A stretch of 64,000 nucleotides of DNA from Gemmatimonadota bacterium (GTDB lineage: Bacteria; Gemmatimonadota; Gemmatimonadetes; Gemmatimonadales; GWC2-71-9): NCBI GenBank assembly GCA_040388535.1, contig JAZKBR010000001.1, forward strand, positions 482,821 to 546,820, in the 5' to 3' direction. Below the pieces are notes generated by a model, which ran no database searches, was not told where the DNA came from, and was given only the letters and a program-made list of their open reading frames with translations. The position numbers were made by a program, and so were the translations under genes. Shown piece by piece: positions 1,438 through 12,967 of the stretch (its first letter is position 1; each line of letters starts with the position of its first letter).

Positions 1438-2142
1438 ATGACCGGCATTCCTCCGCAGCCTCCTGCCCCCCCCACTATTCTCGATGGCGCTGTCCGCTTT
1501 TCCGATCAAGGCTTGACACTTGTCGATGAGCTCACAAGGAAAAGTCCAGACAGCCATCGCGCGATCGGTATGTATGCCGAGGGCGTCCGTGCTCTCCAGC
1601 GAGACGACGGTCCGGAATCCGTCCACGTCGCCGCATATGAGTTTCGCGAGCTGATGAGCATACTTCCCGCGATCTTGAACGTTCCTCGGGCCAGTCATGA
1701 ACAATTGAACGGGCAAGCAAACGCGCTCGGGGAAGCTTGGCGCCATGCTCGCACCAACAGCGTGTGCTACCGCACCGGGGACTGGACAGGAAGCATCGAC
1801 CCAGCCCTGTTGGCCTTCTTGGTTCGATGTGGCGCATTCTTTCTCTGGATGGAGCAAAACGTCCCGACGAGGCGCGCTGAGACAGCTCAGATGCTCACCC
1901 GCCTTAATCCTCCCGGGAGCCCGATGCCACCATCCGTAATGGATGTGCGGACCAGCAAATGGGCGGAGATGCTACGGTTTTTTAATGGGGTTACGCACCA
2001 TGCCGACTCCGCCACGCGGCAGCGAGTGGAGGAAGAGCTAGGGCGCCTCGAAGTGTTCTTACTTGAACACTTGGTTCCAACGCCGATCGATGACGAATCC
2101 GATATCGATCAGCTGATCTCCGATGGCGAGGCTCCCGCATGA
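1438..2142 (+). CDS. Uncharacterised protein with HEPN-like C-terminus, partner of the 955-aa protein
   Basis: A 234-residue protein of unknown family. Near the C-terminus the helical segment LRFFNGVTHHADSATRQRV contains Arg-x6-His, which fits the Rx4-6H signature of HEPN ribonuclease folds. It is followed by a long amphipathic helix and an acidic tail. The HEPN reading is inference from one short motif. The gene overlaps the next one by 4 bases (ATGA), so the two are almost certainly translationally coupled and their products may act together. Codon use and GC are unlike the housekeeping genes to the right, in line with horizontal transfer. It could equally be a helical adaptor without nuclease activity. 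Confidence 0.65.
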   Translation: MTGIPPQPPAPPTILDGAVRFSDQGLTLVDELTRKSPDSHRAIGMYAEGVRALQRDDGPESVHVAAYEFRELMSILPAILNVPRASHEQLNGQANALGEAWRHARTNSVCYRTGDWTGSIDPALLAFLVRCGAFFLWMEQNVPTRRAETAQMLTRLNPPGSPMPPSVMDVRTSKWAEMLRFFNGVTHHADSATRQRVEEELGRLEVFLLEHLVPTPIDDESDIDQLISDGEAPA

Positions 2143-5006
2143 TATCTGACGAGACGATCACCAAAGCGATTGCGTTGATTCAGAAGGGACCGACAAACGC
2201 GGAATATTTTTTTGAAAAACTGTCGTCCCCAGCCTGGATAGAACCGCTACGGAGGAAGAATCTCTTCGCGCCCTACCCCGCCGAGCGGCGGGGTGACATG
2301 ATCTCGTTTCCATTTTGGTCGCCGGGCAAGTATCTGGTCCGAATGGCGGCGAATGCGGAAGCGCGTGGCGCAGTCGCCTCCATCCTGAAAGTGCTTCCGA
2401 CTTCAGACAATCCGCGCGTGTATGAGGATGTTGCCGATGCGGCACTGGCCTTACCGCCTTCGTTGGGCGCGCAGTTAACCACAACCCTACTGGCGGGGCT
2501 CTCAGGTAAGTTTCAGTTGCTCCTACCGGGCAAGGCTGCGAAGGTGATCGTGAAACTCGCGGATGCTGGCTTCGCGTCCCAGGCGATCACGTTGGCGAGG
2601 GCCCTGTTTGCGCTCACTCCATCAACACCGGTGCCACCTGATGATGACGGCACCTCCTCATTGGTACGTGGAGAAGCGAAGGGGCGCTTTGATAGTTACG
2701 AGTATGGCGAGCTACTTGACGTGTGCGTCCCAGGCCTGGCGGCCTCGGACGCCCTTGGAACCGTGGCTCTACTGTGTGATTTGCTTGAAGTCGCTGTGGA
2801 GAGTGGCTCCCTGTCCCAAGCCGATGGGGCCGAGGACTACTCATACATCTGGCAACCGCTGATTCGAGTTGCCGAAGATCGCCGGAACAGTATCCGGAAC
2901 GACCTGGTCGTCGGCCTGCGCGACGCAGGCGAGACAATCGGCAACCATGCACCTGACAGACTGCCTGCTGTCCTTGCTGAGATAGCGGGGCGGCCCACGA
3001 ATGTGTTTCGGCGCATCGTCTTGCATCTGCTATCACTCTTCGGCGAACGCCTGCTGCCAGAGGTGCAGCGATGGTTGGAAGACTCTGCGGTCCGCGATGA
3101 TCACGGCCTGAGACCTGAGTACAACATCTTGTTGGCGCGCTTTTTCGGCGATTTGCCTGGCATCGTGCAGCAGCACTACTTGGAATGGGTGAATGCCGGA
3201 CCGGATGTCGACGAATACGTGGCATGGCGGCAACGCCTGGATGGAACCACACCTGACGAGGTCGACAAGGCCGGTTACGTCGGAGTGTGGAAGCGTGACC
3301 GGTTGGGAATCGTGCGGATGTTCTTGGGGACTGGCTCGCACGCAACGACACTTGAGCGACTAGAAGCGGAGTATGGCGCTGCTCCCGAGCCGGGGCCGCT
3401 TTCCCGCGGGGCGATGACCTGGGTCGGCGAAAGAAGCCCGCTCACCCAAGAGGAGGCGGACCAGTTGCCATGGCCTGCCCTCCTGGGGTACCTGAGGACA
3501 TGGAAGCCGTCCGACGATCCCGAAGGCCCCAGCGAGGCCGGATTGGCGAACGCGGTCAGACAGAAAGCTGTAAGTGACGCAGGGGGAGCTATTGTCGCCC
3601 TCGCTCAGGCAGAGGAACTCCATGCAGCCTATGCGGTTGCGCTAGTTGAAGGCATCGCGGGAGCGAGGCGCGACGGCGCTGTCATTGATTGGGCTGGGCT
3701 GCTGGATTCCTTGTACGAAATCACCTCTGAAGCGCAGACCGCCGACGGCCTTGGCGGTAACGATCGTCAACTGGTCGGGGTGCGCCGGTCCGCCATTTCA
3801 CTCGTGGAAGACGCGCTAAGCCAGACGCCGGACGTCATCCCATTCGAAAACCGAGCGCTGGTATGGAAACTGATCGTCAGAGTTACGGACGACCCTGACC
3901 CGACGCCACAGCATGAGGATCGGCACGGCGGCAACCCTCTGGACGCCCTTACACTCAGCCTAAACACTGTTCGGGGCAAAGCGTTTCACGCCGTCGCGAA
4001 GTACGCATTGTGGGTACGGCGCAATATCGCCGTGCTTTCGGGCGATACGACGACGTTCGATTCGATGCCTGAGGTGCGGGCGGTGCTCGAAAGTCATCTC
4101 GATGCGAGCAACGATCCGTCGCTGGCGGTCAGGGCGACATACGGACAGTGGTTTCCGTGGTGGGTGCTATTGGATGAGGAGTGGGCCAAGTCGCATCGAG
4201 ACCTAATCTTCCCCGACGCCCAGCTGCTCCAGGAGTATTGGCACGCGGCGTGGGAGGCATACATTGTCTATTGCAGTCCCTATTCCACGATTCTGCCAAT
4301 CCTGCACCCTACTTACGCGAAGGCAATCGCCGAGCTTGCCGCACCCTCGGCGTCCGCTCCGAAGCCTTTCGAGAGCCCGACTGAGCATCTAGCACAACAT
4401 CTGATGGCCTATTACTGGCGGGGTGAGCTCGGGCTAGAGGAGGGAGGCTTAGTCCGTCAGTTTTTTGCCAGAGCGGCCGAGGATCACAGACGCAAAGCAC
4501 TGAAGTCGATCGGATGGTCGCTCCACAGAGCGGAAAGTGCCCCGGGGGAAGAGGTGACCGCGCGGCTCCAGGCGCTATGGAACTGGCGGATGCAAGTCGA
4601 CATCAGGGCGGAGCTAGGGGCGTTTGGCTCATGGTTCGGATCGGGACGCCTGGACCTTCCGTGGTCTCTGTGGACGCTCGAAACCGTCCTGTCTAAGTCA
4701 ATCCTTCCCACACCTGGGCATCAAGTTGTGCAACGACTTGCCGCCATCGCACCCCAGTACCCTGCCGCTACGATTCGATGCTTGGCCTGGATGGTTGAAC
4801 TAGCGTCTCACGACTGGTCCATCCATGGGTGGATAGATGAAGCACGGGTAATACTTCGGGCCGGTTTGAACTCTGACGACGATGATACCAAGGCTCGTAG
4901 CGAGCAGCTGATTCAGAAGCTCGTAGCCATGCGATATCGAGATTTCCGAACCCTGTTGGTGGAAGCGGACTCGGCTGGCCGGGAGGGTCGTGCAGACGCA
5001 GGATGA
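2139..5006 (+). CDS. Large helical-repeat protein of unknown function in accessory island
   Basis: A 955-residue protein, soluble by eye, with no signal peptide or membrane segment. The N-terminus (NAEYFFEKLSSPAWIEPL, then ISFPFWSPGKYLVRMA) leads into many helix pairs such as DNPRVYEDVADAALALPP. This looks like an alpha-solenoid (HEAT-like) scaffold. No Walker A/B, nuclease, methylase or TIR motif was seen, so no enzymatic role is assigned. It overlaps the 3' end of the upstream gene by 4 bases and its stop codon directly abuts the stop of the convergent small gene at 5007. Its place beside a Bil-like operon and TA-like genes suggests a defence or conflict role, which is inference by context only. 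Confidence 0.7.
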   Translation: MISDETITKAIALIQKGPTNAEYFFEKLSSPAWIEPLRRKNLFAPYPAERRGDMISFPFWSPGKYLVRMAANAEARGAVASILKVLPTSDNPRVYEDVADAALALPPSLGAQLTTTLLAGLSGKFQLLLPGKAAKVIVKLADAGFASQAITLARALFALTPSTPVPPDDDGTSSLVRGEAKGRFDSYEYGELLDVCVPGLAASDALGTVALLCDLLEVAVESGSLSQADGAEDYSYIWQPLIRVAEDRRNSIRNDLVVGLRDAGETIGNHAPDRLPAVLAEIAGRPTNVFRRIVLHLLSLFGERLLPEVQRWLEDSAVRDDHGLRPEYNILLARFFGDLPGIVQQHYLEWVNAGPDVDEYVAWRQRLDGTTPDEVDKAGYVGVWKRDRLGIVRMFLGTGSHATTLERLEAEYGAAPEPGPLSRGAMTWVGERSPLTQEEADQLPWPALLGYLRTWKPSDDPEGPSEAGLANAVRQKAVSDAGGAIVALAQAEELHAAYAVALVEGIAGARRDGAVIDWAGLLDSLYEITSEAQTADGLGGNDRQLVGVRRSAISLVEDALSQTPDVIPFENRALVWKLIVRVTDDPDPTPQHEDRHGGNPLDALTLSLNTVRGKAFHAVAKYALWVRRNIAVLSGDTTTFDSMPEVRAVLESHLDASNDPSLAVRATYGQWFPWWVLLDEEWAKSHRDLIFPDAQLLQEYWHAAWEAYIVYCSPYSTILPILHPTYAKAIAELAAPSASAPKPFESPTEHLAQHLMAYYWRGELGLEEGGLVRQFFARAAEDHRRKALKSIGWSLHRAESAPGEEVTARLQALWNWRMQVDIRAELGAFGSWFGSGRLDLPWSLWTLETVLSKSILPTPGHQVVQRLAAIAPQYPAATIRCLAWMVELASHDWSIHGWIDEARVILRAGLNSDDDDTKARSEQLIQKLVAMRYRDFRTLLVEADSAGREGRADAG

Positions 5007-5309: not shown

Positions 5310-6173
5310 TCAGGTGAAATGCTGTCTCGGGGTCGGGCGGAGATACATACCGAGACTCAACGCGTCATAGCGGTTGAAAAAGGTCTCAAAATGAAAAATG
5401 TGATGGTCTCCTAAGTCGTCCGCGAGCATGATTTCGGCCTCCCCGAGCGAGCCCCCCGACTGCCCGCCGCAGTAAGCAGACACCTGCCGAAACATGGCCA
5501 CCTCGGTGATCTTGCTGAACTTCGTCGCGAATGATGGTGACTGGATGAAATAGCGACATGGAGCCAATGGATTCCAGTTGGGACGCCGTCGACTCACATG
5601 GGGATGGTCGGAGATCATGCCGACCATCGGCCGATCTGTCCCTGCAAGCTCCACAAAGCGGTGCAGTGTTGTAGAGATCGTGTTTCCGAATTTCGTTCCA
5701 AGAACTTTCACCGCATCGATACACGGGGTCAGCGAGCGTGCCTCCTCGCGGAAGCGGTCTTGGAGGAACAGCAACCGCCCCGCGCCAAAGTTCGCCTCAG
5801 ACTCAACTTGGTCATGGCAGTCCTGCGACAACGTGGCCACGTTGTCGCCAAGCATTGTGTCGATGTGCCACGGTAACAGGCTGTGTACTATCTCATGAGT
5901 CTCGTTCCATCGGTGTTTCTTCTCAGGAAGTGCAGCATCGAGCAAGATGCGCTTGCTGTCGGGAAGGTACAGCGCCTTGAGCGAGAGCTTACGAACAACG
6001 TCGATGACTATTGTGGGTCTACGGTAGACTTGAATACCCGCGACTCGTATTCTATTTACGACTTCGCCCAACACGCCTGGGTCATCGACTGTATAGAATG
6101 ATCGGTCCAATTGCAGGAGCTCTCGAACATCCTCCAAGCGCAATGGAGGCTCGGGGTAGTCAAGCCCGCGCAA
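5310..6173 (-). CDS. ImmA/IrrE-family metallopeptidase
   Basis: A zinc peptidase of the ImmA/IrrE (COG2856) type. The HEIVH motif at residues 93-97 gives two zinc His and the catalytic Glu. ESEAN (about 124-128) supplies the likely third ligand, as in other family members. These enzymes typically cleave the XRE repressor encoded next to them, and an XRE gene lies directly upstream. The TTG at 6173 is the first usual start codon, but the frame stays open to 6266 and encodes a plausible N-terminus (RILPPKTINDIDKRVERVL) without any ATG, GTG or TTG. The true start is probably upstream, at CTG 6239, or was lost by an indel. The C-terminal third matches no recognised domain. Confidence 0.8.
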   Translation of the reverse strand: MRGLDYPEPPLRLEDVRELLQLDRSFYTVDDPGVLGEVVNRIRVAGIQVYRRPTIVIDVVRKLSLKALYLPDSKRILLDAALPEKKHRWNETHEIVHSLLPWHIDTMLGDNVATLSQDCHDQVESEANFGAGRLLFLQDRFREEARSLTPCIDAVKVLGTKFGNTISTTLHRFVELAGTDRPMVGMISDHPHVSRRRPNWNPLAPCRYFIQSPSFATKFSKITEVAMFRQVSAYCGGQSGGSLGEAEIMLADDLGDHHIFHFETFFNRYDALSLGMYLRPTPRQHFT

Positions 6174-6243
6174 GACACGCTCGACACGCTTGTCGATGTC
6201 ATTGATCGTCTTGGGTGGGAGAATGCGGTTCTTGCTCAGGTGA

Positions 6244-6735
6244 TCATCCCGGGCTCGCCCTTTCGTTCAATATGACTACGAATGCCTCAAGCGCGGCCTG
6301 TTCTTCTCGCGTTAGAGCTGCAACGGACTCCGAGCGGGCCGCAAATCGGATAGCCTCATTGAACAGTTTCGCGTCATCAGGGGCCATTAGCCCGGAGACC
6401 TGAAGAAGTGCCCCCTGTGGAACTCGGAAGTAGGATGCGAGCTGATACACCGATCGCAACTGAGGTTTGTGCCGGGGATCTTCCTCAATGCCGACCAATT
6501 CAAATACTTCCACGTCAGCGTCGTCAGCGAGCTTCTCCAAGGTAAGCCCGTGACGACGCCGCATTAGCTGCACAAAGCGCCCAAATGCCGGATTGATGTC
6601 TTCATGTGTAGGCGGTGTATGAGGGGGGGCGTACAAAGCCGTTGGGGCACGTGCAAGCACACCCGCTCCAACCTCGGCGCCTGCCTCGAGCTGAGCCATT
6701 CGCCGGCACCATTCTTCAGTAATGTCGTGCTTCAT
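6244..6735 (-). CDS. XRE-family helix-turn-helix regulator
   Basis: A 163-residue protein. Residues about 52-108 form an XRE/Cro-type HTH (FVQLMRRRHGLTLEKLADD followed by a recognition region and RSVYQLASYFRVP). The roughly 50 N-terminal residues are extra, and the C-terminal helix is Glu/Ala-rich. It is the likely repressor and substrate partner of the ImmA-type peptidase downstream. Its start overlaps the end of the GNAT gene by 4 bases (ATGA), so translation is coupled. The end at 6244 lies inside the open upstream extension of the ImmA frame. Confidence 0.8.
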   Translation of the reverse strand: MKHDITEEWCRRMAQLEAGAEVGAGVLARAPTALYAPPHTPPTHEDINPAFGRFVQLMRRRHGLTLEKLADDADVEVFELVGIEEDPRHKPQLRSVYQLASYFRVPQGALLQVSGLMAPDDAKLFNEAIRFAARSESVAALTREEQAALEAFVVILNERASPG

Positions 6736-7358
6736 GGTTGGTCCCCCTTTGCAACAAAGGCGTGCGCCTGATCCGAAGTCATCTCGAAGTATCGCATCCT
6801 GTATTCTGCGTCGAATCCCAGATCGGTCATGCCGCAGCTGGTCCCATAGAAGTCGTTCGCTTGCGGAAGTGAGTGGAGCCCAATTCGCCCCTTGAAGCCC
6901 TCTTCCAGGCTCAAGTCAATCGCGGCGCGCATTAGGAGAGATCCAACACCGGAATAGCGAGGTGGTTCGTACAAAAGGCGTTGGTTCCAAGGGGCGGCCT
7001 CAACGTACGAAACATACACAAGATGCTGGCCGCGTTGGCTGTCGATACGACACCGGTTCACGGCCGTATCGACCACCATCATGCCTTGAGTCATTCCTTC
7101 GCAAACAAGGCTAAATCCGCGTCGTGCTAGGACGTTTTGCAGCGCCTCCGCCTTTTTCCGCCAATTCCAGTGGCTGCTCTGCGGCTCGCGCGCGTTTGCA
7201 TCCGCCTTCTTGAGCCGTTGCACCCCTTCGAGCATCGCCGGAAGCCACTCGCTTTTCCAGTCGACAATTTGCGCCTCTCCAATATTGTCGAAGAGCTCCG
7301 CCGCGACCATTTCTTGGCTTTGCAGCTTCCACAGCGAAACCGGAATGCCTCCAGTCAT
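6732..7358 (-). CDS. GNAT-family N-acetyltransferase, probable partner of RHH protein
   Basis: A 208-residue protein. The acetyl-CoA loop is PRYSGVGSLLMRAAI (residues about 133-147, the R/Q-x-x-G-x-G/A motif). The later ANDFYGTSCGM has the Tyr typical of GNAT active sites. The N-terminal third is helical and Trp-rich. The gene overlaps the upstream RHH gene by 4 bases. RHH plus GNAT is the classic layout of type II TacAT-like toxin-antitoxin pairs that acetylate aminoacyl-tRNA. This protein, however, is longer than typical TacT-like toxins, so a non-toxin acetyltransferase is also possible. Confidence 0.75.
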   Translation of the reverse strand: MTGGIPVSLWKLQSQEMVAAELFDNIGEAQIVDWKSEWLPAMLEGVQRLKKADANAREPQSSHWNWRKKAEALQNVLARRGFSLVCEGMTQGMMVVDTAVNRCRIDSQRGQHLVYVSYVEAAPWNQRLLYEPPRYSGVGSLLMRAAIDLSLEEGFKGRIGLHSLPQANDFYGTSCGMTDLGFDAEYRMRYFEMTSDQAHAFVAKGDQP

Positions 7359-7567
7359 AGCATCATCACTTCAGCCTTGTCCTTCGTGAGTTCATGCTCG
7401 AAATACAGCTTCTCCCCCGCTTCCAGCCGCACCTCTACTAGCTGATAGAGACGAAGGGCCTGGCGCAGAACTGACGTCTTGGTCAGGTCCTTCTTCATGC
7501 AAAGGGTCTCCAACGCAAGCATCTCCGCGTCGGTCAAATTGAGCGTCATCGTCTTCTTGGCTGACAT
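7355..7567 (-). CDS. Ribbon-helix-helix DNA-binding protein (antitoxin-like)
   Basis: A 70-residue protein. TMTLNLTDAEMLALETLC is the beta-strand plus first helix of a MetJ/Arc-type RHH fold, followed by LTKTSVLRQALRLYQLV as the second helix. The start is the ATG at 7567, five bases after a GGAGG at 7573-7577. A longer frame to 7618 would run through the promoter and is rejected. As first gene of the leftward operon it probably represses its own promoter, and perhaps the divergent Bil-like promoter, through repeats in the AT-rich spacer. Coupled by ATGA overlap to the GNAT gene. Confidence 0.8.
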   Translation of the reverse strand: MSAKKTMTLNLTDAEMLALETLCMKKDLTKTSVLRQALRLYQLVEVRLEAGEKLYFEHELTKDKAEVMML

Positions 7568-7625: not shown

Positions 7626-7668
7626 TAGCCATAGATTACTTGACTATTAGCTAAAACTTGGCTATATA
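7626..7668 (+). promoter_or_regulatory. Sigma-70 promoter and putative operator of the Bil-like operon
   Basis: TTGACT (7640-7645), 17 bases, then TATATA (7663-7668) is a near-consensus promoter about 70 bases upstream of the first ATG. An inverted repeat, TAGCCA (7626-7631) and TGGCTA (7659-7664), brackets the -35 box and touches the -10 box. Related ACTA/TAGCTA repeats lie between the arms. This is a plausible binding site for the divergent RHH or XRE regulator. Confidence 0.55.
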
Positions 7669-7736: not shown

Positions 7737-8042
7737 ATGGCTACAGCAGAGAAGTCAGGGCCCGAGACCGCCAAAGATCAGTTCTTAGCGGTCGCCGTAT
7801 CAACGACATCCGGGTTCTTCCCCGAGGAAGGATTCTCGCGGGTTCCCGCGCATCAGCCGGTGAGGCATGTGCTTGAGAAAGCAGCACACGAGCTGAAGCT
7901 CACCGACACAGAGAGTTGGATCGCAAGCGTTGCCGGTCCGACGGGTCAGCGGTTGATCGCCGTAGACAAGTCGTACCTGGAAAATGACCTGACGTGCATG
8001 GCAGAAATCGATTGGGGCCCTGCAGAGGGCGGGGGAGGCTGA
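7737..8042 (+). CDS. bilA: Ubiquitin-like protein with C-terminal Gly4 (BilA-like)
   Basis: A 101-residue protein. The order strand (FLAVAVSTTSGFF), helix (VRHVLEKAAHELKL), later strands (WIASVAG, RLIAVD) and LENDLTCMAEIDWG fits a single beta-grasp domain. The protein ends in Glu-Gly-Gly-Gly-Gly immediately before the stop codon, the exposed Gly-Gly tail that E1 enzymes adenylate, so no peptidase maturation seems needed. RBS AGGAGA lies at 7725-7730. It is the first gene of an Ubl-E2-JAB-E1 operon, the BilABCD order. The studied Collimonas BilA has two fused Ubl domains, whereas only one fits here. The assignment is by operon order, tail and secondary structure, not by a database match. Confidence 0.75.
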   Translation: MATAEKSGPETAKDQFLAVAVSTTSGFFPEEGFSRVPAHQPVRHVLEKAAHELKLTDTESWIASVAGPTGQRLIAVDKSYLENDLTCMAEIDWGPAEGGGG

Positions 8043-8043
8043 T

Positions 8044-8481
8044 TTGCACCTCCTGGTATCGCGCGCGCTTTTCGAGGAGCAGTGTGGTCGGTTGACCCCA
8101 CGGCTCCTCGATGCGCGGGGCTGGTTGCTGAACACACGCGACTATCCGACCCTTGATGTCGTTTTCACCGCAAATGGTAGAACACCGTTACGGCTATGTC
8201 TCTTGTGCGACAACTGGGACGAGCAGCCGCCATCGATTTCGCTTCATTCAAGCGATGGAACTCCGTTGACGACTCTCTCGCCAGACCCTACCGGGGTTTT
8301 CAATGGCGGCGCTCATCCTGCAACGGGACGACCATTTGTCTGCATGCGTGGGTCCCGTGAGTACCACGCCCATCCGAGCCACATCGCGGAGTTGTGGGAG
8401 GGCATTCGGCGGAGCTCCGCATATGACCTTGGCGGCATTCTCACTCAACTTTGGCACGCATGGCAGAAAGGGAGCGGCTAG
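8044..8481 (+). CDS. bilB: E2-like ubiquitin-conjugating protein (BilB-like)
   Basis: A 145-residue protein with a TTG start one base after the Ubl stop, so probably coupled. E2-like landmarks appear in order: a strand region, EQPPSISL (the PP before a core strand), and AHPATGRPFVCMRGSREYH, where C100 sits where the E2 catalytic Cys follows an H-P-x-x-G-x-P stretch. Helices then run to the C-terminus (ELWEGIRRSS, ILTQLWHAW). His-rich HAHPSH follows the Cys. In Bil systems the E2 passes the Ubl from E1 to phage virion proteins. The E2 call rests on position and the short motif. A divergent E2-like scaffold without the classical HPN is typical of prokaryotic families. Confidence 0.65.
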   Translation: MHLLVSRALFEEQCGRLTPRLLDARGWLLNTRDYPTLDVVFTANGRTPLRLCLLCDNWDEQPPSISLHSSDGTPLTTLSPDPTGVFNGGAHPATGRPFVCMRGSREYHAHPSHIAELWEGIRRSSAYDLGGILTQLWHAWQKGSG

Positions 8482-8483
8482 AA

Positions 8484-8942
8484 ATGATTCTTTGTCCATC
8501 TCACTGCATTCATCAGACGCTTGTGAGCCTCCAGGCAAGCGCAAGAGACAGGAAAGAAGGGATCGTCCTTTGGCTCGGCCGACGAGACCGCGACAGTTCC
8601 ACGGTCGTAGAAGCCTACGTCCCTGAACACGAAGCGAGAGCTGACATGTTCTGGATCCCAGCCGTAAGCATGGTCGAGCTAAAGCAAAGGATCAGAACCG
8701 ACAGATTGTACATAGCAGCGCAGGTACACAGCCACCCTCGGGAGGCGTTTCATTCACCTGCGGACGACAAATGGGCAATTGTGCGACATGAGGGGGCGCT
8801 CTCGATCGTGCTTCCATACTTCGCAGAGCGGACGACTATTGACTCGTTCATGACGCATGCCAAGGTCTTCGCGCATGCCGCAGGCAATCGCTGGCAAGAA
8901 CTCACGGCGTCAGAGGTGGAACTGTGCCTGAAGGTAGTCTGA
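8484..8942 (+). CDS. bilC: JAB/JAMM metallo-deubiquitinase-like peptidase (BilC-like)
   Basis: A 152-residue protein. The JAMM zinc site is visible: Glu25 in KEGIVLWLG, then HSHPREAFHSPAD with H82, H84, S91 and D94. The spacing between the second His and the Ser is one residue shorter than in Rpn11-type enzymes. The family removes ubiquitin-like modifiers from targets or processes their tails. Since the Ubl already ends in Gly-Gly, a deconjugation role is more likely. The ATG at 8484 was chosen, three bases after the E2 stop and preceded by AGGGAG; an in-frame ATG at 8460 would overlap the E2 gene. Its 3' end overlaps the E1 gene by 19 bases. Confidence 0.85.
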   Translation: MILCPSHCIHQTLVSLQASARDRKEGIVLWLGRRDRDSSTVVEAYVPEHEARADMFWIPAVSMVELKQRIRTDRLYIAAQVHSHPREAFHSPADDKWAIVRHEGALSIVLPYFAERTTIDSFMTHAKVFAHAAGNRWQELTASEVELCLKVV

Positions 8943-10321
8943 ACGAGAAGGCGAGGCGAGAGAATTCCCTGGCGCTTGCTGCGATGCTCGGAGTCACAGA
9001 GGGTCGGGCTAGCGAACTGCTAGGGGTCTCTGTCCTGCTAACGGTGGACAGCAAGGACAGCGCGGGCGCACAACTGGCCGACGACATCCACAGGCTGATA
9101 TCACGGACGGTAAGAGCTGTCACATTTGCGACTGATCAAGATCGATTCGCGGTAGAAATCATCCTCGGCCACTCGGGCGCCCGTAGCGAAGCGCCTCAGC
9201 TATATGTGAGCATGTCAACCGAAGCGATCGTAATTGACAGCAACACACAAGAATCGGTACCCAACGTCAACGTTCATGGATTGCTCCGGCTAATCGGAGC
9301 CTGCTACGTGGTAGCCGCTGCCTTGGAGATTGCCCTCCAACCCGAACTAGCCCGGCCGGCAACATCTAGGAGAACCGTAAGATTTTCGGAGCTCGGGGTA
9401 AACCTGCAGGATTTGGAGAGTCCAATCGATCTCGGGCACGCATACCTCGCCGGAGCCGGGGCAATCGGCAACGCGTTCCTCTGGGCGACCTCCAGACTCA
9501 ACATTCGAGGAACACTTGACGTCGTGGACGACGACGTAGTGAGCAGCGGCAATCTGAACCGCCAAGTCTTCTTCACCGATGGTGACGTAGGCTGGCCGAA
9601 ATCAGTACGCCTTGTCGAACACGCACGAGGATTGCTTCCCGAGCTAAGCCTCCGCGCTCAGATCTGCCGTTTGCAAGATGTCCCAGAAAAGAACACAGGG
9701 CCTTGGCTTCGGCGATTGGTAGTAGCTGTGGATAGTCGGCGGGCCCGGCGACAGCTCCAGAGTGAACTTCCCGGGGAAGTCTTCGACGCCTCAACAACTG
9801 ACACACGCGAAGTCATCATTCATCACAATCGCGAGCCTAGGAACACCGCCTGCCTGGAATGCATCTACTGTGCGAACGAGGCCGAATACACTAGAGAACA
9901 CCACATAGCCGATTCTCTTGGTATATCAGTCGACGAAGTTCGCCGCGAGCGTGTGACAGACGCGGCTGCATCATTGATTGCCGACAGGTTTCCCACTTTC
10001 AAGGCAGAAGATATAGTCGGCATTGCATACGACTCTCTGTTCAAACAGCTCTGCGGACAAGCACTGCTTCGGGGACCGAGCGGGCGAGCGATTCTTGCGC
10101 CCTTTGCTTTCGTATCCTGCCTCGCGGGCGCGCTGCTCGCGCTCGAGATTGTGCGACGCCTCGCTCCTGGGGCGCCCGCATCTGACCTCAACTACTGGCG
10201 AGTGAGTGCTTGGACTCCCCCGATCCTAAGGCTTCAACGCGTTCGAACACAAAACGCGACCTGTGAATGCTGTTCCAACGAAGATATCGCGAGGGTTCGG
10301 GCCAATTTGTGGGGGGCCTAG
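8924..10321 (+). CDS. bilD: E1-like ThiF-domain ubiquitin-activating enzyme (BilD-like)
   Basis: A 465-residue protein with a GTG start inside the JAB gene. The adenylation domain begins at AYLAGAGAIGNAF (GxGxxG, residues 177-182), then VVDDDVVSSGNLNRQVFF with the acidic pair and the conserved Asn/Arg of E1 enzymes (R213), then Lys226. About 170 N-terminal residues form an extra domain, as in Bil-type E1s. Two cysteine groups, CLECIYC (310-316) and CECC (447-450), could bind structural zinc. Which Cys forms the Ubl thioester, if any, cannot be told. It would adenylate the Gly-ended protein from 7737 and charge the E2-like partner. No CD-NTase gene is nearby, which argues against type II CBASS. 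Confidence 0.85.
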   Translation: MPEGSLNEKARRENSLALAAMLGVTEGRASELLGVSVLLTVDSKDSAGAQLADDIHRLISRTVRAVTFATDQDRFAVEIILGHSGARSEAPQLYVSMSTEAIVIDSNTQESVPNVNVHGLLRLIGACYVVAAALEIALQPELARPATSRRTVRFSELGVNLQDLESPIDLGHAYLAGAGAIGNAFLWATSRLNIRGTLDVVDDDVVSSGNLNRQVFFTDGDVGWPKSVRLVEHARGLLPELSLRAQICRLQDVPEKNTGPWLRRLVVAVDSRRARRQLQSELPGEVFDASTTDTREVIIHHNREPRNTACLECIYCANEAEYTREHHIADSLGISVDEVRRERVTDAAASLIADRFPTFKAEDIVGIAYDSLFKQLCGQALLRGPSGRAILAPFAFVSCLAGALLALEIVRRLAPGAPASDLNYWRVSAWTPPILRLQRVRTQNATCECCSNEDIARVRANLWGA

Positions 10322-11222: not shown

Positions 11223-12551
11223 CTACCCAAACCGCCGAAACGCCTCCCCAATCTTCCCAATCTCCACCCCACCCAACCCCGTCGCCGCCGCCTCTTCCGG
11301 CCAATGCGCCAGCGCATCCTCGACCTCGCGCAGCACCTCCTTGCCATCGCCCGGCAGGTTGAACTTCGCCCCCACCGCGAGCAGATCGTCCCGCGTGAAG
11401 CCGTCGTCCCTCCCATTCGCGCGCATCTGATGCGTGGCGGCCCACTGGCCTCCGACCGAATAGATCAGGTCGTACGCCGGGGCCAGCGACCACTTCCCTG
11501 ACTCATCCATCAGGAAGGCGAAGTTCTTGACGTGATCGTCCTGATTCCTCGCGGCGAGATTGAAAACCATCCGACGGTATCCCTCGAGCACTGCCGGCGC
11601 GCCGAGTTCCAGCTCCTGGATGGTGCGCAGGTACTCCTCGTAGCTGACCAGTTGCCGGATGTCGTAGTCGGCGTGCAGCAAGCCGCCCAAGCTATGCAGA
11701 TGGAGTCGCTCGGTGCCGACACGGTCGAAGCGCTTCGTCATGAAGTGCGCATACTCGCGCTCACGCAGCAGGTGCGTCTCGGCCATCGTGATCCCGGCGC
11801 GACGCGCGAGCCTCGAGTAGGCATACTCGATTCGACCATACGGACCCGGCCGGAAATCCCTGGTCAACTCGTGCCCGCCCCTCGCGGCCGTGACGCCGTC
11901 GAACTTGATAATCCACGGCTCCTCACCACGCTCGGGCGCGGCAAAGCCCGATCGCACCCGGTCTCGCGCACGATCCCAGAGGATCAATCCCTTCGCACGC
12001 GCGCCACCTGCCGTGGCACCAACCTGCATGATCTCCGGCAGCGCAACTCTGGTGTCACCTTCGATGACACGCCGCGCCTGATCGACCAGGCTCGCGACCT
12101 CGAGTGCCTCAGTGGTGAGTTCGGGGACGCGCGTATTGGTCGGCGGCCGGAATTCGAGCGCGCCCATCCCGCGCGAACCGACGTAGAGCAATCGCTGCAC
12201 GGCACTGAGCGACGCCTCCGGCCGGCCCTGCTGCTCGAAGAACTGCGTGATGATGGCATTGCCGAATGCGTCGGGGAGCGAATCGGCCAACACGCCGGGA
12301 AGGCCGAGGAACGACCGCGACCGCGCGAGTTCATCGAAGGTCTGCGGCCCGCTCCGCGTTAACGGCAGATGAATCGGAGAAATCTCGAGCCCCGAGCTGC
12401 GGAACTGCTCGGCATACTCGAATACCACCCGCCCCGACTGCGGATCCTCGGCCACCGCACCCACCTCGTGACCCCAGAGATGCACCGTGGCGACGGCACC
12501 GCGCTCTGGTGAACGAGCTCGGCGCTTAAGCGTCGGTACCGAGTCGGACAT
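11223..12551 (-). CDS. hipA: HipA-family Ser/Thr kinase toxin
   Basis: A 442-residue protein with the HipA fold. The N-terminal half carries the family's partner/regulatory subdomain (FLGLPGVLADSLPDAFGN). AGGARAK (181-187) is the glycine-rich ATP loop region. NLAARNQDDHVKNFAF (331-346) is the catalytic loop with Asp339 and Asn343, and LAPAYDLI (357-362) holds the metal-binding Asp. HipA toxins phosphorylate glutamyl-tRNA synthetase or other targets and cause growth arrest. The length matches E. coli HipA (about 440). It follows hipB by about 11 bases in the same direction. All key residues are present, so it should be active. Confidence 0.92.
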   Translation of the reverse strand: MSDSVPTLKRRARSPERGAVATVHLWGHEVGAVAEDPQSGRVVFEYAEQFRSSGLEISPIHLPLTRSGPQTFDELARSRSFLGLPGVLADSLPDAFGNAIITQFFEQQGRPEASLSAVQRLLYVGSRGMGALEFRPPTNTRVPELTTEALEVASLVDQARRVIEGDTRVALPEIMQVGATAGGARAKGLILWDRARDRVRSGFAAPERGEEPWIIKFDGVTAARGGHELTRDFRPGPYGRIEYAYSRLARRAGITMAETHLLREREYAHFMTKRFDRVGTERLHLHSLGGLLHADYDIRQLVSYEEYLRTIQELELGAPAVLEGYRRMVFNLAARNQDDHVKNFAFLMDESGKWSLAPAYDLIYSVGGQWAATHQMRANGRDDGFTRDDLLAVGAKFNLPGDGKEVLREVEDALAHWPEEAAATGLGGVEIGKIGEAFRRFG

Positions 12552-12562
12552 GCGCGCCGCGC

Positions 12563-12877
12563 CTACTCGTCCGGGCGCCCGCGAGCTTGCCGCGGAGTTC
12601 CGGCGCGCTGACGAACTCGCCCACCGAGTCGTGCCATCTGGATCGGAGAAATGGTTGGCGCCGGAAGGAACGCGTCGAGAGCCTCGAGACGTCCGAGCGC
12701 CCTCAGCAACTGCACCACCGTCATCAGTGCCGGACGACTCTCCCCTGCCTCGGCACGCCTGGCCGTGCGATAGCTGACCCCGGCAGCCAGGGCGACCTCC
12801 TCGAGCGTCCGATTCTGCTGAAGCCGGTAGCCCTGCAGCCGCTCCCCGACCTCCCGCACCACCTCGCCATCGGTCAT
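12563..12877 (-). CDS. hipB: HipB-type XRE antitoxin/repressor
   Basis: A 104-residue protein. The HTH spans residues about 8-63 (LQGYRLQQNRTLEEVALAAG, VSYRTARRAEAGESRPAL, TVVQLLRALGRL), an XRE domain as in HipB. A basic Gln/Arg/Pro tail follows. The ATG at 12877 (MTDGEVV) was chosen because a longer frame to 12934 would read through the promoter and operator; a GTG at 12892 is also possible. It should neutralise the HipA toxin encoded next and repress the operon through the two palindromes upstream. Confidence 0.88.
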   Translation of the reverse strand: MTDGEVVREVGERLQGYRLQQNRTLEEVALAAGVSYRTARRAEAGESRPALMTVVQLLRALGRLEALDAFLPAPTISPIQMARLGGRVRQRAGTPRQARGRPDE

Positions 12878-12911
12878 TCGGTTGGTGATTCGCACGCTGA
12901 CTCCATATAAC

Positions 12912-12967
12912 AGGCCGTATATGGCCCTAATCAAGCAAAAATCAACAAATTAGGCCAGACGTGGCCT
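12912..12967 (-). promoter_or_regulatory. Paired palindromic operators and promoter of hipBA
   Basis: Two inverted repeats of the form AGGCC-N6-GGCC(T): AGGCCGTATATGGCC at 12912-12926 and AGGCCAGACGTGGCCT at 12952-12967. Their centres are 40 bases apart, close to four helical turns. On the minus strand a TTGATT -35-like box (about 12929-12934) and a TTATAT -10-like box (about 12905-12910) flank the gene-proximal palindrome. The layout matches known HipB autoregulation with multiple operators, but the sequence differs from the E. coli site. Confidence 0.65.

Follow-up and report, generated by a model that had tools for sequence, protein, structure and literature searches.

A predicted ubiquitin-like conjugation operon in a Gemmatimonadota genome

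We analyzed a 64,000-nucleotide stretch of the genome of a Gemmatimonadota bacterium (assembly GCA_040388535.1, contig JAZKBR010000001.1, positions 482,821 to 546,820; here called the window). It holds a predicted bacterial ISG15-like (Bil) conjugation operon of four genes and, divergently oriented, a four-gene cassette that probably controls it (Table 1). The initial annotation of this DNA had claimed four adjoining or overlapping open reading frames (ORFs) at 7737 to 10321, in the BilABCD order of ubiquitin-like protein (Ubl), E2, JAB, and E1. Both coordinates and order were borne out: by sequence, E1, E2, and JAB correspond to the solved proteins BilD, BilB, and BilC, and by predicted fold the Ubl is closest to BilA. 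The E1 start lies inside the JAB gene, giving an overlap of 19 bases; the remaining junctions are 1 to 2 bases.

The E1 matched BilD (8tyz_A) both as a single sequence in a phmmer search of the PDB (1.4e-20) and as a family profile (5.2e-35), and it has the Pfam domains E1-N (PF14463) and ThiF (PF00899). Its Cys377, in a conserved K-x-L-C motif, aligns with BilD Cys417 and is invariant among relatives; CxxC pairs lie at 310/313 and 447/450. The E2 matched BilB (8tyz_C) at 1e-4 as a single sequence and at 2.3e-10 as a family profile that includes all four CEHH residues, and it also matched Pfam Metal_CEHH (PF14455; 7.3e-9). The spacing of C100/E106/H108/H113 equals that of BilB C138/E144/H146/H151. 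An E2 fold, on which the initial annotation had made its reading depend, is thus favored by the sequence profile rather than by a fold prediction. The JAB protein matched BilC (8tyx_B) at 1.1e-12 (single sequence) and 1.2e-29 (profile), and the PADLOC BilC model at 7.4e-13; its E25 aligns with BilC E33, and all JAMM residues are present. The residues that had been named in advance (E2 Cys100; JAB E25, H82, H84, S91, and D94; the E1 GxGxxG motif at G177, G179, and G182, and NLNRQ) proved exact, and they are invariant or nearly invariant in alignments of 26 to 28 rows of relatives. Roles of the catalytic residues in the solved Bil proteins, including BilD Cys417, have been described (PMC11354881).

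Relatives were collected by scanning 84,980 species genomes with an E1 alignment, which gave 41 loci, ~35 of them with the full Ubl-E2-JAB-E1 order. A scan of genome contigs with the single E1 sequence gave no match, and the alignment was required as the query. The relatives come from Pseudomonadota, Acidobacteriota, Bacteroidota, Myxococcota, Verrucomicrobiota, Fidelibacterota, and other phyla. Within the class to which the window belongs, any relative was present in 6 of 295 genomes and this family in 2 of 295. Since the same four genes keep their order in ~35 related loci across phyla, with the named residues near-invariant, the arrangement is beyond chance. On the homology of E1, E2, and JAB, the predicted fold of the Ubl, and the catalytic residues, we conclude that positions 7737 to 10321 are, as judged from sequence, a Bil-type ubiquitin-like conjugation operon with all catalytic parts.

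Table 1. Predicted features of the Bil locus (positions in the window)
Feature	Position	Strand	Description
ImmA/IrrE (M78) metalloprotease, CapP-like	5310..6173 or further upstream	-	HEIVH motif; PF06114 3e-5, PADLOC capP 4.6e-9
XRE-family helix-turn-helix (HTH) repressor-like, CapH-like position	6244..6735	-	4-base overlap with GNAT gene; Pfam HTH_19 3.7e-6
GNAT-fold acetyltransferase-like	6732..7358	-	208 aa; 4-base overlap with RHH gene; AlphaFold2 and Foldseek
CopG-type ribbon-helix-helix (RHH)	7355..7567	-	70 aa from ATG 7567; longer TTG-start ORF to 7618; relatives match RHH_1 PF01402
Predicted operator	7626..7664	+	Boxes TAGCCA (7626), TAGCTA (7648), TGGCTA (7659); spacing 22 and 11 bp
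Presumed sigma-70-like operon promoter	7640..7668	+	TTGACT (7640-7645), 17 nt, TATATA (7663-7668)
BilA-like Ubl	7737..8042	+	101 aa; one beta-grasp domain; mature C-terminus GGGG; AlphaFold2 model, Foldseek rank 1 8tyx_A
BilB-like E2	8044..8481	+	145 aa; TTG start; CEHH motif C100/E106/H108/H113; PF14455, 8tyz_C
BilC-like JAMM/JAB deconjugase	8484..8942	+	152 aa; E25, H82, H84, S91, D94; 8tyx_B, PADLOC BilC
BilD-like E1	8924..10321	+	465 aa; GTG start; inactive adenylation domain (E1-N) and ThiF domain; 8tyz_A, PF14463, PF00899

Fold and exposed tail of the Ubl

Searches of sequence families and the PDB with the Ubl sequence gave no match; hence, the fold was predicted. An AlphaFold2 model made with 28 relatives (predicted local distance difference test score [pLDDT], 79.8) has the beta-grasp order b-b-a-b-b-b, with strands at 16-22 and 34-37, a helix at 42-52, and strands at 61-67, 70-73, and 88-95. 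The best PDB match of this model in Foldseek was the bacterial Ubl of a Bil deubiquitinase (DUB) complex, 8tyx_A (E, 7.5e-5), and lower matches included FAF1-UBX, SUMO, and ISG15 domains. The beta-grasp fold without which the initial annotation would have failed was therefore found.

Two features of the Ubl had been singled out as differences from the best-studied case. The first, a single Ubl domain, is present but is not a notable difference, since many relatives have one recognizable domain; among relatives the architecture ranges over one domain, a coiled coil plus one domain, two domains, or N-terminal multiubiquitin-like domains. The second, an exposed Gly4 tail, is real (the C-terminus reads EGGGG-stop) but is a trait of a subclade, found in 8 of 32 Ubls (the window, L016, L017, L019, L020, L021, L022, and L023); the other 24 have 1 to 5 residues beyond the glycines. 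Seven of the eight exposed-tail Ubls belong to loci that bear the cassette (Fisher P, 2.4e-6, with relatedness ignored). In the E1 tree, the exposed-tail loci lie inside one supported set of 12 rows (97/94), together with L010, L011, and L024.

The TTG start codon of the E2 gene follows directly 3′ of the Ubl gene, and the four glycine codons (GGCGGGGGAGGC, window 8028-8046) also form a Shine-Dalgarno-like GGGAGG for it. The same double use is seen in one close relative, L016. In Bradyrhizobium barranii (L009, 3685-4233), the Ubl frame is broken just before the glycine tail, whereas the other three genes of the operon are intact; the break may reflect a sequencing error, decay, or unusual decoding.

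A divergent cassette shared by Bil, CBASS, and multiubiquitin operons

The cassette lies outside the coordinates of the initial annotation. It runs head-to-head with the operon, and its first gene is 169 bp upstream of the Ubl gene. For the 208-aa protein, sequence searches of Pfam and the PDB gave nothing significant, and the assignment comes from its fold: its model (pLDDT, 88.3; predicted template modeling score, 0.87) matched GNAT acetyltransferases in Foldseek, including the GmvT toxin. In PADLOC, the XRE-HTH protein matched HTH_VI (6.1e-7), whereas capH scored only 0.02.

The same four genes, in the order RHH-GNAT-HTH-M78, stand head-to-head with Bil operons at 8 loci, with operons of the cyclic-oligonucleotide-based antiphage signaling system (CBASS) at 4, and with multiubiquitin-E1 operons at 10. 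The Bil-facing cassettes are those of the window, L016 (genome G124), L009 (the same as L018), L022, and L023 (L018, L022, and L023 in Bradyrhizobium), L017 (an alphaproteobacterial metagenome-assembled genome), L019 (Dyella), and L021 (a Marinimicrobia metagenome-assembled genome). The CBASS-facing cassettes (L067, L068, L080, and L069) are paired with cyclase-HORMA-TRIP13-SAVED operons and include plasmid copies in Methylocystis, Nitrobacter, and Methylobacterium. Those facing multiubiquitin-E1 operons (L062, L065, L066, L070, L075 to L079, and L081) include plasmid copies in Agrobacterium, Shinella, Rhizobium, Novosphingobium, Thioclava, Roseibium, Methylomagnum, and Nitratireductor, and several of their payload operons carry an E2 domain and DUF6527. 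The window's own class also has a cassette that faces CBASS (G263, L069) and one that faces a multiubiquitin and JAB-E1 operon (G116, L070). Cassettes are rare, being found in 4 of 295 genomes of this class and in 2 of 298 genomes of the order of Bradyrhizobium forestalis (G295).

Plasmids were searched with the GNAT protein as the query, which is blind to payload. Of the 19 distinct cassettes obtained through the GNAT protein, 16 stand opposite a Bil, CBASS, or multiubiquitin operon. Of the remaining 3, one lies ahead of a Cas9-like gene and two have decayed or been interrupted by an insertion sequence. Given the CBASS and multiubiquitin partners among the plasmid matches, we rejected the idea of a Bil-specific cassette. 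Profiles built from three Bil-linked cassettes recognize all four genes in every intact locus. The RHH-GNAT pair is not an autonomous two-gene module here: HTH and ImmA/IrrE genes accompany it in all sampled alphaproteobacterial, gammaproteobacterial, and own-class loci (one copy is degraded). A shorter cyanobacterial GNAT relative (L083) lies on a Trichormus plasmid between a DNA methyltransferase gene and the DISARM gene drmD, a further link to defense.

In a tree of the GNAT and protease proteins, the window's cassette groups with the multiubiquitin-linked L066 and L079 (100/99), apart from the seven other Bil-linked cassettes (100/99), and the CBASS-linked cassettes form one clade (100/100). 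In the E1 tree, the Bil operons stay in one group. An approximately unbiased (AU) test rejected trees in which the Bil-linked cassettes were held together (p-AU, 1.4e-125), and a single origin of all Bil-linked cassettes was discarded on this ground. Since the window's cassette groups with multiubiquitin-linked copies and the AU test rejects a single group, we conclude from these trees that the cassette has been paired with Bil at least twice.

At Bil loci that lack the cassette, its slot is often filled by an XRE and ImmA/IrrE pair or by Xre-RES or WYL genes; the slot proteases of L025 and L013 match CapP at ~1e-36. A locus in Bradyrhizobium septentrionale (L010, 3119-5007) keeps E1; the cassette, Ubl, and E2 were not found adjoining it, and an IS110-family transposase lies upstream.

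Tandem boxes over the presumed operon promoter

The usual targets of RHH repressors are short palindromes in tandem, spaced by one helical turn, as established for MetJ, Arc, and CopG. Read from the sequence, two of the three boxes of the window overlie the spacer between the presumed -35 and -10 elements and the -10 element itself, a position that matches relatives. Across payload types, the head-to-head regions carry T[AG]GC[CT]A boxes at an 11-bp phase: the Nitrobacter CBASS locus has four TAGCTA boxes at 11-bp steps, and the Methylomagnum locus reads TAGCTA-TTGAC-TAGCTA-AAAAG-TAGCTA. A total of 58 boxes were present in 25 regions, compared with 5.5 ± 2.2 in dinucleotide shuffles. Pairs at 11 bp occurred in 13 regions and pairs at 22 bp in 10 (expected, 0.007 for each), and 29 of 31 box distances up to 60 bp were 11, 22, or 33 bp.

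With ≤1 mismatch allowed, the array of the window occurs nowhere else in the window or in the 3.7-Mb genome. A strict three-box operator (11 + 11) matched two of the 295 class genomes; the window's own genome was not one of them, its spacing being 22 + 11. Among 32 cassette-less Bil loci, an 11-bp box pair was found in one, L045 (259-522 and upstream). This locus has a nonexposed tail, and the boxes lie close to the upstream end of its contig, which stops short of the cassette region. Within the cassettes, the DNA-contact beta-strand of the RHH protein tracks the box: RRQMTL or RKQMTL goes with TGGCCA, and K(K/R)TMTLNL goes with TAGCTA-type boxes.

Proposed control of the Bil operon and alternatives

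We consider it probable that the Bil conjugation operon is repressed by a divergent, exchangeable, and probably damage-responsive RHH-GNAT-XRE-ImmA/IrrE controller that acts through the tandem-box operator. The RHH protein, probably with the GNAT protein, would occupy the 11-bp-phased boxes over the operon promoter and keep the operon off. The XRE-HTH and ImmA/IrrE proteins would form a CapH/CapP-like switch in which, by analogy, DNA damage activates the protease and repression is relieved. Once released, Bil would tag its targets: E1 would adenylate the Ubl at its GGGG tail and load it on Cys377, E2 would take it on Cys100 and pass it to target proteins, and JAB would reverse the tagging by stripping the Ubl from them. 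From the genes and their arrangement we infer conjugation and its targets, the box-binding protein, repression, the GNAT role, the inducing signal, and phage defense; the GNAT protein may be a corepressor or sensor, or an addiction toxin.

Several observations weigh against this reading. A simple promoter scanner made no call of the presumed operon promoter, because position 6 of the -10 element is not T. The boxes were defined post hoc from inspected sequences, and the loci share kinship. The co-change of RHH and box is one clade-level event and hence supports, without proving, RHH as the binder. The match of the protease to CapP is weak, at 4.6e-9 compared with ~1e-36 beside two cassette-less Bil loci, and the CapH similarity is marginal; the capP/capH picture is alike in the cassette relatives. 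Finally, the conserved N-terminus of ImmA/IrrE (6174-6266, minus strand) has no in-frame ATG, GTG, or TTG, and the ATGA at the junction is out of frame. Because this region has no standard start codon, the protease of the window may be impaired or weak, or it may start at an unusual codon.

In other settings, RHH-GNAT pairs form toxin-antitoxin modules of the TacAT, AtaRT, and KacAT class, which also counts against a controller. The pair could thus be a mere addiction module beside defense operons that stabilizes the locus and autoregulates its own promoter, with any control of the operon exerted by XRE and ImmA/IrrE. The 4-base overlap of the two genes is the layout of GNAT toxin-antitoxin loci, GmvT is among the structural matches, the boxes could act at the divergent promoter of the cassette itself, and other toxin-antitoxin-like genes, such as Xre-RES in L012 and L033, fill the slot of other Bil loci. 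However, the intact cassettes all keep four genes in order and are nearly always head-to-head with a defense-type operon, as in most of the payload-blind collection, and boxes are located in the spacer of the presumed -35 and -10 elements of the payload promoter. We therefore regard an addiction module as unlikely, and control of the Bil operon by the cassette as the better account.

The Bil enzymes could instead serve general stress or housekeeping protein modification rather than phage defense. DNA-damage-type controllers are compatible with such a role, and related Bub operons, for which phage protection has not been shown, may mediate stress responses (PMC13373217). The patchy distribution within the class, carriage on plasmids, the swapping of the controller with CBASS through mobile exchange, and a neighboring gene resembling Dsr1 argue against it and make it improbable. 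With respect to JAB, the tail is already exposed as made, so JAB would not be needed for Ubl maturation in the exposed-tail subclade, where it is probably an eraser; a putative deconjugation-only role here, as proposed initially, is reasonable. A continued need for JAB in maturation, for instance to remove adducts or aberrant fusions, fits the retention of all JAMM residues in this subclade, as in relatives that need tail trimming, but is similarly improbable, because the Ubl genes of the window and of seven relatives end in GGGG-stop, which leaves nothing to trim past the last glycine, and deconjugation alone accounts for the retained active site.

Relation to known systems

Chambers et al. 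and Hor et al. reportedly described the BilABCD system in 2024, with solved E1-E2-Ubl and Ubl-DUB complexes (8tyz, 8tz0, 8tyx, and 8tyy). The operon in the window resembles Bil in gene order, in the homology of E1, E2, and JAB with all catalytic residues, and in the Ubl fold. It differs in its one beta-grasp domain, exposed tail, distant sequences, and divergent four-gene cassette. The best-studied Bil has two Ubl domains and a JAB-trimmed tail; the window has neither, and these are nondefining traits that vary among relatives.

Control of an immune operon by CapH and CapP is said to have been described by Lau et al. in 2022. Like that pair (and CapW or CapK+CapS), the cassette places XRE-HTH and ImmA/IrrE genes divergent from a defense operon, here CBASS, multiubiquitin, or Bil. 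It differs in its longer protease (~310 aa) with a distant CapP match, in having RHH-GNAT in the same operon, and in the 11-bp-phased boxes. With RHH-GNAT toxin-antitoxin modules it shares a small CopG-type RHH gene that overlaps a downstream GNAT-fold gene, whereas its GNAT protein, at 208 aa, has an N-terminal extension and is tied to HTH, ImmA/IrrE, and a divergent defense operon. For CBASS and Bub, control of neighboring immune operons by CapH and CapP is known, and five Bil operons have been observed with capKS alongside (PMC13373217).

Type 6c operons, with a prototype on plasmid NGR234, were predicted by Iyer, Burroughs, and Aravind in 2006 (PMC1779556). The NGR234 locus (L014) consists of a distant small protein, a CEHH protein, JAB, and E1; its E1 is 29.6% identical, and hidden Markov models match its E2, JAB, and E1. 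The "metal-binding" CEHH protein of type 6c corresponds to E2. It differs in the N-terminal region of E1 and in having no cassette.

We found no description of the RHH-GNAT cassette or of the box code in the open-access literature, subscription papers being outside the search, and no models for the cassette RHH and GNAT proteins in PADLOC 2023 or NCBIfam 2026. Since subscription literature was outside the search, the novelty of the RHH-GNAT-containing cassette is provisional. Only tentatively, and with something short of even confidence, do we propose that RHH-GNAT-XRE-ImmA/IrrE is an undescribed, horizontally exchanged immunity controller that sets one operator code before Bil, CBASS, and multiubiquitin operons and places an acetyltransferase in the switch (for example, for acetyl-coenzyme A sensing or repressor acetylation) alongside a DNA-damage protease.

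Neighboring genes and implications

On the other side of the cassette, a 955-aa protein (2139-5006, plus strand) matches the C-terminal part of the PADLOC Dsr1 model (4.9e-25) and is preceded by a 234-aa gene with no family given (1438-2142, plus strand). From sequence, this Dsr1-like pair is a possible second defense system adjoining the Bil locus. Downstream of E1, HipA-like and HipB-like genes were read from the sequence (11223-12934, minus strand); on a plasmid of Bradyrhizobium septentrionale, the related Bil E1 (L010) is likewise followed by a HipBA-type pair.

How bacteria silence costly or lethal immune operons is an open question. One controller and one operator code before three defense chemistries would offer a direct and portable test of whether a standard control unit travels with immunity genes when they are exchanged. 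In the exposed-tail Bil subclade, conjugation and JAB deconjugation could be studied without a maturation step.

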